Shown in pieces: positions 2,765 through 6,295 of a stretch of DNA of 45,852 bases. Every line of letters starts with the position of its first letter. Position 1 is the first letter of the stretch. The notes beneath the pieces are model-generated. The model worked only from the letters and a program-made list of their open reading frames with translations, was not told the origin of the DNA and ran no database searches. The stretch spans positions 1-45,852 of the forward strand of contig CAMDNW010000015.1 in NCBI GenBank assembly GCA_945903275.1. Direction: 5' to 3'. This DNA is from Thermoflexus hugenholtzii JAD2 (GTDB lineage: Bacteria > Chloroflexota > Dehalococcoidia > UBA2979). The translations under genes and the position numbers were made by a program.

Positions 2765-5578
2765 TCACCCCGGCGGGGGGGAGATGGGGGGTGAGGTGGC
2801 GGCCTCGGTGAGGGTGTCGCGGAGGGCGGTGAGGCGGGCGCGGGCGGTGGCGAGGCGTTCTTCTTCTTTGGCGACGATGGGGGCGGGGGCGCGGGCTTTG
2901 AATTGATCGTCGCCGAGTTTGGTTTCGAGGCGGGAGACTTCGAGTGCAGCCTCGGTAATTTGTTTGGTGAGGCGGGCGCGTTCGGCGTTGAGGTCGACGG
3001 CGCCGGCGAGGGAGACGAAGACGGCGCCGATGTTGGATGGGGGGGTGCGCGGGACGATATCGGCGCCGGTGGGGGCGGCGGCGCGATCGGCGGAGATGGT
3101 AAGCGGGCGCACGCGGGCGAGTTGTTCGATGGCTGGCTGGAGGTCTTGTGCGGTCTGGTCAATGTCGGCGACGCCATCGGCGACGATGTGTGCGGCGAGC
3201 CAGCGGCCGGCGTCGACGCGCTTCTCGGCGCGTGCGTTACGAATCTCGCGAATCCAGTCGCGGACGGCATCGATGTGCGCTTCGGCGATGGGGTCTTCGC
3301 CGCGCATGTTCGAGGCGGCGGTGGGGTAGGCGGCCACGATCAGCGCGGGCGATCCGCCGGATACGGATGGGCAGGTGGTGATGAGGCGTTGCCAGATTTC
3401 CTCGGTGACATACGGCATGCACGGGTGCAGCAGCCGCAGCGTCTGATCGACGACATGCACGAGCACGGGCATAGGCGAGCGGTCGCCGCCACGGATGCGG
3501 ATCTTGGCGAACTCGACGTACCAGTCGGCGAAGTCTTCCCAGAAGAAGTCTCGAACTTGCCGGACGGCTTCACCTAGTTCGAATTTGGTGAGGAGATCGT
3601 TGGCTTGACGAGTGACCGCGGCAAGACGCGAGAGGATCCAGCGGTCTTCCATGCGCAGTGAGGCGCTGTCGTTCGAGAGGGCGAGGTCGTCGGCGGGTTC
3701 GACCATGGTGAGGACGAAGCGGGAGGCGTTCCAGAGTTTATTGGCGAAGTTGCGGCCAGCCTCTAGGCGCTGATCGGTGATGCGCTGATCGTTGCCGGGT
3801 GAGGTGGAGGAGATGAGAGCGTAGCGGAGGGCGTCTGTGCCGTAGGCCTCGATCTGCTGGACGGGGTCGACGACGTTGCCCTTGGACTTGGACATCTTTG
3901 CGCCGTCGGGGGCGCGGACGAGGCCGTGGAGGTAGACGGTCTCGAAGGGGACGACCCCTTTCACGGTGGGGACGTCTCGCATGTTGTAGAGCGAGAGCAT
4001 GATCATGCGGGCGACCCAGAAAAAGATGATGTCGTAGCCGGTCTCCATCACCTGCGTGGGGTAGAACCGCGCGAGATCGGCGGCGGCTGCGTTGGGCCAG
4101 CCGAGGGTGGAGTGGGGCCAGAGGCCGGACGAGAACCATGTGTCGAGGGTGTCCTCATCCTGCCGCACGTTGGCGGCGCCGCACGAGGCGCAGGCCGTGG
4201 GGTCGAGCATCACGTCGTCACGCGCGGGGAGGGTCATGCCGCCGCAGGCATCGCAGTACCAGACAGGGATGCGGTGGCCCCACCAGATCTGGCGGGAGAT
4301 CGTCCAGTCGCGGATGTTCTCCATCCAGTGCATGTAGGTGCGCTCGAAGCGCTGTGGGACGAACTGGATGCGGCGATCCGCGACGGCGCCGATGGCCTCG
4401 GCGGCGAGGTCGTACTGGCCGGGGTGTTCGGCGCGGACGCGCACGAACCACTGGTCGGAGAGGAGCGGTTCGACGATGGTGCCGGAGCGCTGGCAGTGGC
4501 CGATGGCGTGGGTGTATGGCTCGATGCGCTCGATGAGGCCGCGCGCCTCGAGGTCTTCGACGACGCGTGCGCGCGCCTCGAAGCGGTCGAGGCCGGCGTA
4601 GGCACCGGCGGCCGAGGTCATCTTGCCGTCGAAGCCGATGACGGTGTGTGTGTCGAGGTGGTGGCGCTGGCCGATCTCGAAGTCGATGGGGTCATGGCCG
4701 GGAGTGACCTTGAGCGCGCCGGAGCCGCCCTCGATGCTCACGGCGGCGTCGGCGATGACGGGGACGGTGCGGTCGCCGGTAGCGACGAGCACGCGGCGGC
4801 CGATGAGCGCGGCGTAGCGGGGGTCATCGGGATTCACGGCGATGGCCGAGTCGGCGGGGATGGTCTCGGGGCGAGTGGTGGCGATGACGATGTGTTCGCC
4901 GGTAGGTGCGTTGTTGTCATCGACGGTGGGGTAGCGGACGTACCAAAACGAGCCGGGCTCGTCCTCGTGCTCCACTTCGAGATCGGAGATGGCGGTGCCG
5001 CAGTCGGGGCACCAGTTCACGAGGCGCATGCCCCGGTAGATCAGGCCGTCCTCGTAGAGGCGGACGAAGGTGGCGCGGACGGCCTGCTGCGGCACGTCGT
5101 CCATGGTGAAGCGTTCGCGCGACCAGTCGGCGGATGCGCCGAGGCGGCGGTGCTGCCGGGATATCGCGCTACGAGTGCGGTGCACCCATTGCCAGACGCG
5201 GTCGAGAAAGGCGTCGCGGGTCATGTCGCGGCGCTCGATGCCCTCGCGGCGGAGTTCGCGCTCGACGACGTTCTGGACGGCGATGGCGGCGTGGTCGACG
5301 CCGGGGAGCCAGAGGGTGTCATCGCCGGACATGCGGTGCCAGCGGACGAGGAGATCCTCGACGGCGACGGTGAGGGCGTGGCCGAGGTGGAGTTCTCCAG
5401 TGACGTTGGGCGGCGGCATGATGATGGTGAAGGGGGTGCGGGAGACATTGGGCGTGGTGTCGGAGGCGGGGTGGAAGAAGCCCTGACGTTCCCACCACTC
5501 GTAGCGGGCCTGCTCAACCTGGGCGGGTTCGTAGGCGGTGGCCATCTCGGAGGGCGGGTGGGGGGCCTCGGTGGTCAT
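2765..5578 (-). CDS. valS: Valyl-tRNA synthetase
   Basis: A 937-residue class I aminoacyl-tRNA synthetase that charges tRNA-Val. The catalytic HIGH motif appears as PPPNVTGELHLGHAL near residue 55, and the KMSKS loop as KMSKSKGNVVDP in the second half. The CP1 editing domain carries TTRPETIPADSAIAVNP. Cysteine pairs CPDCG, CDACG and CASCG fit zinc sites. The C-terminal 70 residues form the charged coiled coil typical of ValRS (LNAERARLTKQI onward). Length is normal. The ATG at 5578 follows AGGGACAGCGCC; an internal methionine 12 codons in is a possible alternative. Upstream lies a leader peptide plus terminator that fits transcription attenuation in response to valine-tRNA charging. The DUF3018 and HAD genes follow on the same strand. 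Confidence 0.97.
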   Translation of the reverse strand: MTTEAPHPPSEMATAYEPAQVEQARYEWWERQGFFHPASDTTPNVSRTPFTIIMPPPNVTGELHLGHALTVAVEDLLVRWHRMSGDDTLWLPGVDHAAIAVQNVVERELRREGIERRDMTRDAFLDRVWQWVHRTRSAISRQHRRLGASADWSRERFTMDDVPQQAVRATFVRLYEDGLIYRGMRLVNWCPDCGTAISDLEVEHEDEPGSFWYVRYPTVDDNNAPTGEHIVIATTRPETIPADSAIAVNPDDPRYAALIGRRVLVATGDRTVPVIADAAVSIEGGSGALKVTPGHDPIDFEIGQRHHLDTHTVIGFDGKMTSAAGAYAGLDRFEARARVVEDLEARGLIERIEPYTHAIGHCQRSGTIVEPLLSDQWFVRVRAEHPGQYDLAAEAIGAVADRRIQFVPQRFERTYMHWMENIRDWTISRQIWWGHRIPVWYCDACGGMTLPARDDVMLDPTACASCGAANVRQDEDTLDTWFSSGLWPHSTLGWPNAAAADLARFYPTQVMETGYDIIFFWVARMIMLSLYNMRDVPTVKGVVPFETVYLHGLVRAPDGAKMSKSKGNVVDPVQQIEAYGTDALRYALISSTSPGNDQRITDQRLEAGRNFANKLWNASRFVLTMVEPADDLALSNDSASLRMEDRWILSRLAAVTRQANDLLTKFELGEAVRQVRDFFWEDFADWYVEFAKIRIRGGDRSPMPVLVHVVDQTLRLLHPCMPYVTEEIWQRLITTCPSVSGGSPALIVAAYPTAASNMRGEDPIAEAHIDAVRDWIREIRNARAEKRVDAGRWLAAHIVADGVADIDQTAQDLQPAIEQLARVRPLTISADRAAAPTGADIVPRTPPSNIGAVFVSLAGAVDLNAERARLTKQITEAALEVSRLETKLGDDQFKARAPAPIVAKEEERLATARARLTALRDTLTEAATSPPISPPPG

Positions 5579-5637
5579 GGCGCTGTCCCTATCTAAACGT
5601 ATCGCACGTGCGTGCCCCGGCCGGTGGAGGTGAGGGC

Positions 5638-5663
5638 AACAAAACGCCCCGCCGGAGCGGGGC
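5638..5663 (-). terminator. Attenuator terminator ahead of valS
   Basis: On the minus strand a 7-bp GC stem (GCCCCGC with GCGGGGC, loop TCCG) is followed at once by GTTTTGTT. It is 60 bp before the valS ATG and 31 bp after the leader-peptide stop. A full terminator between promoter and gene implies conditional readthrough. Confidence 0.8.
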
Positions 5664-5694
5664 AGAGGCGGCTGGCAGCCTCAGACGTGAGGCG

Positions 5695-5739
5695 CTAGCC
5701 GCCGATGGGTACTGCTACGTGGGCTGGTACTTCGTTCAC
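5695..5739 (-). CDS. Leader peptide MNEVPAHVAVPIGG of the valS attenuator
   Basis: A 14-codon ORF opening with GTG and ending TAG. Three of the 14 residues are valine (positions 4, 8 and 10) and all three use GTA, a seldom-used valine codon in this GC-rich sequence, where GTG dominates. The TAG lies at the base of the first hairpin arm. No usable Shine-Dalgarno is present: GAGGT sits directly against the start. However, TTGACC and TACCAT with 18-bp spacing place the transcription start on the G of GTG, so the leader is probably translated as a leaderless message. Its likely role is to sense charged tRNA-Val by ribosome pausing. Confidence 0.65.
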   Translation of the reverse strand: MNEVPAHVAVPIGG

Positions 5740-5775
5740 ACCTCGATGGTAGGGCGGTGGGTGCTGGGGGGTCAA
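5740..5775 (-). promoter_or_regulatory. valS leader promoter
   Basis: -35 TTGACC (5775-5770), an 18-bp spacer, -10 TACCAT (5751-5746), then six bases to the GTG of the leader peptide. The predicted start site is therefore the first base of that codon. Confidence 0.7.
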
Positions 5776-5869
5776 TGTTAGTTGAGTTGCGTTGTGGAGG
5801 TGAAAGTTAGTATTCGCGATATTACTAGTTATTGAAATAGCAGATGGCAACTGGAGTAATTGATCATTC

Positions 5870-6295
5870 ATGAACGCAGGTAGTTTCGCTGACTCCGCAC
5901 CCGGCCGACTAGTTGCCAGCGGAACGGTGCTGGCTTTCGTTCCAGATCCGTTGCCCCGGCTGCTAGAACTTGACGCCGAGCTCGTCTACCGACTGGAAGA
6001 AGCATCCCGCGCCGTCGCCATGCTTGCGGGGGCCGGGGAGACGCTGCCGAATCCGCACCTGCTCATTCAACCGTTCCTCCGCCGGGAGGCAGTGCTCTCC
6101 TCGCGCATCGTGAACACGCAAGCCTCGGTCTCCGACGTGTATGTGTTTGAAGCGAGTGGGGAATCGCGTACACCGGACTCGCGCCAAAGCGTTAGGGGTG
6201 CACAATGGATTTCGCGGCGAACGGGCCGCGTGGGGGTGAGATGGTGCAAGCAGCCGAGTCCAGCAGTACGAAGCCAGCGCGCTTTCAGGCGCTGA
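5870..6295 (+). pseudogene. Fic-family protein, N-terminal fragment
   Basis: The first ~98 residues match the N-terminal Fic_N region of class II Fic AMP-transferases: FVPDPLPRLLELDAELVYRL, then LPNPHLLIQPFLRREAVLSS, then TQASVSDVYVFEA. After about position 6160 the translation turns into Arg/Ser-rich sequence without similarity, and the catalytic HPFxDGNGR motif is absent before the next gene. The inhibitory motif that normally reads S/TxxxE-G/N is SSRIVN here, so the regulatory glutamate is a valine. It is best read as a decayed remnant. The 60 bp upstream are unusually AT-rich for this window. Confidence 0.75.

Follow-up and report, generated by a model that had tools for sequence, protein, structure and literature searches.

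A probable leader-peptide attenuator with a leaderless, GTA-rich ORF upstream of valS in Thermoflexus hugenholtzii JAD2 and its relatives among Dehalococcoidia

In enterobacteria, the synthetase genes pheST are attenuated through a leader peptide. Leader-peptide attenuators are also predicted for leuS and trpS of Streptomyces, with both terminator and antiterminator hairpins drawn for leuS (PMC1262725), so that the view of this mode of control as an enterobacterial style, adopted in a preliminary description of the locus analyzed here, is too narrow. For the ilvB-II motif, with the uORF of Corynebacterium ilvBNC, the 3' arm of the terminator has been proposed to pair with the loop of hairpin P1 (PMC10272879), and the Mtb ilvB1 leader contains LVVI (PMC13236596). 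Leaderless polycysteine uORFs with a proposed role in translational attenuation are attributed to mycobacteria in the account that the latter paper gives of earlier work (Canestrari et al. 2020, cited in PMC13236596). T-boxes on synthetase genes, treated in the preliminary description as a trait of Firmicutes, are listed for Dehalococcoides ileS along with trpE and trpB (PMC2494555), and the genome considered here has one on ileS as well. In bacilli, T-box and His leader peptide have been exchanged before hisS (PMC2965389). A search of the open-access literature, with subscription papers mostly outside it, yielded no valS leader peptide and no leader-peptide attenuator of Chloroflexota, in agreement with the earlier statement that no described example of this arrangement was known for valS.

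The valS leader region of Thermoflexus hugenholtzii JAD2

The window, that is, the whole stretch of 45,852 nucleotides that was analyzed, corresponds to contig C15 of a genome of 1.75 Mb with a G+C content of 65%. The following parts of the valS locus are identified in it:

5770..5775, minus strand: -35 element TTGACC (promoter scan; a TTGAC-like element recurs in relatives)
5746..5751, minus strand: -10 element TACCAT (promoter scan; a TANNNT-type hexamer precedes the leader start in relatives)
5695..5739, minus strand: predicted leaderless leader-peptide ORF with GTG start at 5739-5737, product MNEVPAHVAVPIGG and stop codon TAG at 5697-5695 (orthologous ORF in 30 family genomes)
5728..5730, minus strand: leader codon 4, Val GTA (codon counts in leaders versus valS genes)
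5716..5718, minus strand: leader codon 8, Val GTA (leader comparison)
5710..5712, minus strand: leader codon 10, the last Val GTA, 6 nt 5' of hairpin 1 (Val-to-hairpin spacing across 30 genomes)
5667..5703, minus strand: hairpin 1, with outer stem GGCGGCT/AGCCGCC and a nested inner stem, its 5' arm overlapping the end of the ORF (folding; 30/30 genomes)
5638..5664, minus strand: intrinsic terminator TGCCCCGC-TCCG-GCGGGGCG (stem 5664-5645) with U-tract TTTTGTT (5644-5638) (conserved in 30/30 genomes)
2765..5578, minus strand: valS, valyl-tRNA synthetase, the downstream gene, with ATG at 5578 (Pfam PF00133, PF08264, PF10458)

The two promoter hexamers are separated by a spacer of 18 nt and form the single sigma-70-like site between 5400 and 6300 (9 of 12 matches; 0.2 sites expected from shuffles), and the GTG start codon lies 6 nt 3' of the -10 element. 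Hairpin 1 and the terminator together fold with -46.1 kcal/mol (z -4.8; none of 200 shuffles equal). The promoter, the start site on the GTG (by geometry), the 14-codon ORF with its three valines all encoded by GTA and the U-tailed terminator are thus found as they had been described, the terminator ending 59 nt (60 bp in the preliminary description) before the valS ATG. The accompanying statement that the stop codon sits at the base of the nested hairpin is correct for the inner hairpin and does not apply to the nested hairpin as a whole, as the TAG starts on the final base of the 5' arm of the outer stem.

GTA is used for only 1 of the 73 Val codons in the valS gene of this genome, which encodes three tRNA-Val species (UAC, GAC and CAC); the GTA codons of the leader most likely read out the UAC isoacceptor. 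Rfam searches of the region 5560-5800 detect no T-box (RF00230) and nothing near the cut-off of any family, even at E 10, and the same method recovers the ileS T-boxes of this genome and its relatives. Divergently from valS, on the plus strand at 5870-6295 of the window, there is a 141-aa ORF whose only match is to PF13784 (Fic/DOC N-terminal domain; E 1.4e-17). This ORF, which appears to be a truncated Fic gene, runs into the beginning of a gene for an MFS transporter.

Conservation of the valS element within the family

The DNA upstream of valS was compared in 44 genomes of the family, which represent the whole order as sampled. The same architecture is present in 30 genomes from 13 genera of this one family/order of Dehalococcoidia (Chloroflexota), the common parts being a TANNNT -10 element, a leaderless ORF of 7-21 codons, a Val cluster, a hairpin rich in G+C and a terminator of the form GCCCCGC..GCGGGG. 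Outside these 30, nothing comparable precedes valS in the low-G+C genera g5, g8 and g10, contig ends truncate the loci of G016 and G018, and the element of g17 is degenerate; every other genome with an upstream region belongs to the 30. G026 has a degenerate leader ORF, additional to those of the 30. Codons and the gap between the -10 element and the start were counted over 31 leaders (433 codons after the start).

The predicted leader peptides, e.g., MHTPVVVVPGGG (G004), MATRVHPNVVVA (G010), MDTKRIRVAVSSVALVPVVVR (G063) and MNLEVVR (G008), are unrelated between genomes in their N-terminal parts, with respect to both sequence and length (7-21 codons). ValS of G004 ('Dehalococcoidia bacterium SSF39', same family) is 71% identical to the query, and most of the identities across the sharing genomes are in the range of 57-74%; given this divergence and the unrelated N-termini, recent descent alone is insufficient to account for the shared features. 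The comparison of orthologous upstream regions, suggested earlier as a check, came out in favor of the proposal: leaderless ORF, Val codons and terminator are retained together in the 30 genomes of 13 genera, in none of which is the terminator found without the ORF, and genus g14 is the weakest case. In the g14 leaders (G029 and G015), ORF, hairpin and terminator are retained, but the Val codons number just 1 and 4, and each leader has a single GTA; sensing in this genus may be decaying or retuned.

Val accounts for 121 of the 433 leader codons (28%), compared with 7.9% of ValS proteins, and 107 of these 121 codons (88%) are GTA, which makes up 36 of the 2018 Val codons (1.8%) in the valS genes (binomial p < 1e-100, a value that overstates independence because the genomes are related). 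GTAGTA is ~100 times as dense in the 260 nt upstream of valS as elsewhere in these loci, and 26 of 31 genomes contain this hexamer. The short ORF predicted upstream of valS thus carries clustered cognate codons, and the observed arrangement is confirmed to be well beyond chance.

The gap between the -10 element and the leader start is 6-7 nt in 25 of the 31 genomes and 4-11 nt in the remainder; over half of the family genomes have a TTGAC-like -35 element about 35-38 nt upstream of the start codon, and some members of g9 have TTGTG in this region. This geometry by itself places the predicted transcription start on the leader start codon and, with the start codon 6-7 nt past the -10 element (25/31), leaves no space for a Shine-Dalgarno site. 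GAGG, which overlaps the gap between the -10 element and the start in some genomes, was considered as such a site and rejected, being too near the start and unconserved. The proS and hisS genes of this order themselves look leaderless, with TANNNT 5-9 nt upstream of the ATG, which suggests that leaderless transcripts could be common in the order.

In 30 genomes, 0-7 nt (sd 1.8 nt) separate the end of the last Val codon from the first base pair of hairpin 1. The stop codon is found at -2 to +20 nt from the same pair (sd 5.6), and the distance from the start to Val has an sd of 13 nt. The small spread of the Val spacing next to the larger spreads of stop and start indicates that the position of a Val-stalled ribosome relative to hairpin 1 is the constant feature, and a stop that varies more than the Val spacing is what a sensor based on codon position would predict. 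The leading edge of a stalled ribosome lies about 10 nt past the A-site codon. With such an edge, a ribosome that occupies the last GTA would extend over about half of the outer stem, its lower part, and one on the first GTA of the run would stop short of hairpin 1. Only the final codons of the cluster are positioned for a stalled ribosome to lie over the 5' arm.

Each of the 30 genomes folds hairpin 1, with a mean z of -3.0 relative to mononucleotide shuffles. Its loop sequence is unconserved, and position 4 of its outer stem, as read by hand, is G-C in g1-g6 and A-U in g7, g12, g13 and g16, a compensatory change that only this manual reading brings out. The RNAalifold consensus derived from the sequence alignment is poor (8 pairs, 0 compensatory pairs) because MAFFT fails to align the variable inner stem. 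An intrinsic terminator lies between the leader ORF and valS in 30 of 30 genomes, with 4-7 T within 9 nt past the stem, and is located 13-148 nt upstream of the match to valS in the genomes examined. At the level of sequence, the comparison shows that the predicted ORF, its leaderless geometry, the bias to Val and GTA, the spacing from Val to the hairpin, the hairpin and the terminator are conserved across the 13 genera.

A covariance model of the valS element matches 30 of the 45 family entries listed. It gave no confident match outside the family among the 393 class genomes sampled (one marginal, E 0.0098) and, with strict filters, 0 matches in 399 further genomes of the phylum. Two weak second-site matches, in G010 and G028, have no leader ORF and were judged to be due to chance. 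A cousin of the valS leader, spotted by hand in G050 from another family of the class, consists of TACCAT, 6 nt, GTG, MSANPTTNRRSSVSVRQAR with two GTA, a hairpin and a terminator; this variant escaped the covariance model and is possibly an independent or diverged version.

Leaders of ilvB and leuS, and T-boxes in the same class

In the same family, leaderless ORFs upstream of ilvB and leuS end in a shared motif, GTN-CTT-ANN-TAG-GCGR, with GCGRC and a hairpin coming after the TAG. A pattern search for this motif in the 44 genomes produced 37 matches, against 0 for the reversed pattern, and 29 of 30 fetched motif loci precede ilvB or leuS. The Val codon of the motif is GTA before ilvB in 16 of 19 cases and GTC before leuS in 10 of 10 (0/10 GTA; Fisher p 1.4e-5), the three ilvB exceptions all belonging to the low-G+C genus g8. 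Val concerns valS and ilvB, not leuS. Since GTA and GTC appear within the same motif, the choice of GTA follows the amino acid of the target gene and not RNA structure or leader composition. Codon-based sensing by the ribosome is the only simple reading of these parallel leaders with a target-dependent GTA or GTC.

The ilvB leader of T. hugenholtzii JAD2 (contig C14, near 13305) ends in ..VLVLT* (GTA CTC GTA CTT ACC TAG), with a hairpin after it. In the genomes examined, the leader hairpin of ilvB is followed by a U-tailed terminator (e.g., GACCCGCCCATGCGGGTCGTTTTCG in T. hugenholtzii JAD2), and this leader is a candidate second attenuator. It is retained in low-G+C g8, where the valS element is gone. 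The g8 ilvB leader uses mostly GTC and GTG, each about 11-12% of the Val codons in g8 valS genes, and avoids GTT and GTA, which are common in g8, mirroring the rarity of GTA in the high-G+C relatives; each genome may employ as its sensor a Val codon that it otherwise seldom uses. The leuS leader (contig C8, near 15150) ends in ..LLVLT* (CTC CTC GTC CTT ACC TAG GCGGCGTCGC) and has a conserved hairpin; no obvious U-tailed terminator is found downstream of the leuS leaders. A pairing between the leuS leader of T. hugenholtzii JAD2 and the ribosome-binding site, noticed by eye, is unconserved in relatives and was dropped. A simple scan of thrS, proS, hisS, serS and pheS in four genomes of four genera detected no comparable leader ORF.

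The T. hugenholtzii JAD2 genome combines a T-box (RF00230) on ileS (locus L085, 2343-2630; E 4.7e-11), found also in the relatives G010 and G002, with leader peptides on valS and leuS. A T-box precedes valS in another family of the class (G041; E 8.7e-17) as well as in an outside Chloroflexota genome (L004). From this distribution, tRNA-charging control seems to predate the valS leader element, the sensor having changed, we infer, from T-box to leader peptide.

Mechanism, alternatives and comparison with described systems

It is very probable that valS is controlled by a ribosome-mediated transcription attenuator that senses the charging of tRNA-Val. The preliminary description had proposed such control by a ribosome on a leaderless message, and both the conservation in 30 genomes and the codon control of ilvB and leuS support it. 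RNA polymerase would start on the leader start codon, and a ribosome would load straight onto the 5' end and translate the short ORF. With abundant Val-tRNA, this ribosome would traverse the GTA cluster and depart, hairpin 1 and the U-tailed terminator would form and most transcripts would end ~60 nt upstream of valS. Under a shortage of Val-tRNA, it would instead stall at GTA, its front resting on the 5' arm of hairpin 1; fewer transcripts would terminate and valS would be expressed. That stalling lowers termination, and acts in this direction, is what we infer from the arrangement.

The weak point of this reading concerns the antiterminator: a classical attenuator requires a pairing that precludes the terminator while the ribosome is stalled. 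Folding with a ribosome constraint at each of three positions, and folding of truncated transcripts, revealed no alternative structure common to the genomes. For a ribosome on the last Val codon, the terminator remains the favored structure at equilibrium in almost every genome; this outcome is not decisive because the E. coli trp leader, used as a positive control, also retains its terminator in the full-length equilibrium test, which is thus insensitive. In many genomes, the best alternative for the same ribosome position joins two 3' arms, that of hairpin 1 and that of the terminator. This pairing usually falls several kcal/mol short of the terminator in stability and is absent in g16. There is no conserved 2:3 pairing, and a weak 2:4 pairing is seen in some genomes. 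Swaps of terminators between genera do not worsen the alternative structure, so that hairpin 1 and the terminator give no signal of coevolution. Further points that speak against the attenuator are the few Val codons of the g14 leaders, the absence of the element from g5, g8 and g10 and the expectation that a ribosome on an early Val codon would fall short of hairpin 1. Hairpin 1 might act instead on polymerase pausing or directly on the adjoining terminator.

With no antiterminator evident, and with a sibling leuS leader that has an ORF and a hairpin and no obvious U-tailed terminator, the ribosome on the leader might sense Val-tRNA and yet affect mainly the translation or stability of the valS mRNA, in the manner proposed for the mycobacterial polycysteine uORFs, the U-tailed hairpin being a minor or constitutive partial terminator. 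This appears unlikely, considering that a U-tract intrinsic terminator separates leader and gene for both valS and ilvB in the genomes examined and that hairpin 1 is remote from the valS ribosome-binding site. Still less probable, by a considerable degree, is an RNA- or protein-binding attenuator that dispenses with codon sensing, whether through thrS-like autocontrol, in which ValS or another factor would bind hairpin 1, or through a degenerate T-box, with the ORF incidental. The stability and conservation of hairpin 1 and the T-boxes that govern valS in related genomes are compatible with it, but the ORF is open from the leaderless start to the Val cluster despite the unconserved N-terminus, GTA versus GTC tracks the target gene within an otherwise identical motif, the loop of hairpin 1 varies in sequence and, as indicated above, Rfam finds no T-box at 5560-5800 even at E 10.

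At 65% G+C, a genome contains many short ORFs and G+C-rich hairpins, and an ordinary promoter, an unrelated terminator and a chance ORF could have come together by coincidence. This explanation is refuted by conservation and retains next to no probability: the arrangement recurs in 30 genomes with ValS mostly 57-74% identical, the covariance model matches upstream of family valS and almost nowhere else, and GTAGTA is ~100-fold enriched.

Beyond the attenuation of valS, a wider scheme can be outlined tentatively and with appreciable doubt. The order could possess a BCAA regulon (valS, leuS and ilvB) that operates via leaderless leader peptides with rare codons as addresses, GTA for Val in G+C-rich genomes and probably CTT for Leu. 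T-boxes would have been replaced on some synthetase genes, and attenuation would proceed with no conserved antiterminator, e.g., with the stalled ribosome opening a hairpin that assists the terminator.

The valS element broadens the reach of leader-peptide control, which now includes valS and a phylum for which it seems undescribed, and its leaderless start would couple transcription and translation from nucleotide one. Within one class, the tRNA-charging control of one gene appears to have been exchanged between the T-box and the translating ribosome, and the matched ilvB, leuS and valS leaders amount to a natural experiment on synonymous codons that encode the sensed amino acid. The presence of a conserved hairpin adjoining a conserved terminator, despite which no conserved antiterminator was found, poses a mechanistic question.

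With pheST and the Streptomyces leuS and trpS leaders, the valS element shares the succession of a short ORF with codons for the synthetase's own amino acid, hairpins, an intrinsic terminator and the synthetase gene; it differs in that the target is valS, the ORF is predicted to be leaderless, the phylum is Chloroflexota and there is no clear antiterminator. The ilvB-II motif and the Mtb ilvB1 leader are similar in that the uORF overlaps the first hairpin (P1), the U-tailed terminator (P2) comes next and BCAA codons are used, whereas those leaders control biosynthesis and valS encodes a synthetase; a 3'-arm capture like that of ilvB-II can be drawn for the valS element in some genomes and is unconserved. 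The mycobacterial polycysteine uORFs, as far as the account in PMC13236596 goes, resemble it as leaderless sensor ORFs made of codons for the amino acid of the regulated pathway, but they involve cysteine, a biosynthetic operon and translational attenuation, compared with valine, valS and a U-tailed terminator here; instead of a run of Cys codons before a cys operon, which is absent, there are Val codons before valS. T-boxes (RF00230) likewise sense tRNA charging, control synthetase genes and precede valS in related lineages, but none is present at this valS locus, where the proposed sensor is the translating ribosome and not direct tRNA binding. Finally, hisS of bacilli is a different gene, for a different amino acid and in a different phylum, and the valS switch is found among families of one class; nevertheless, both cases represent the same evolutionary exchange of the sensing system before a synthetase gene.
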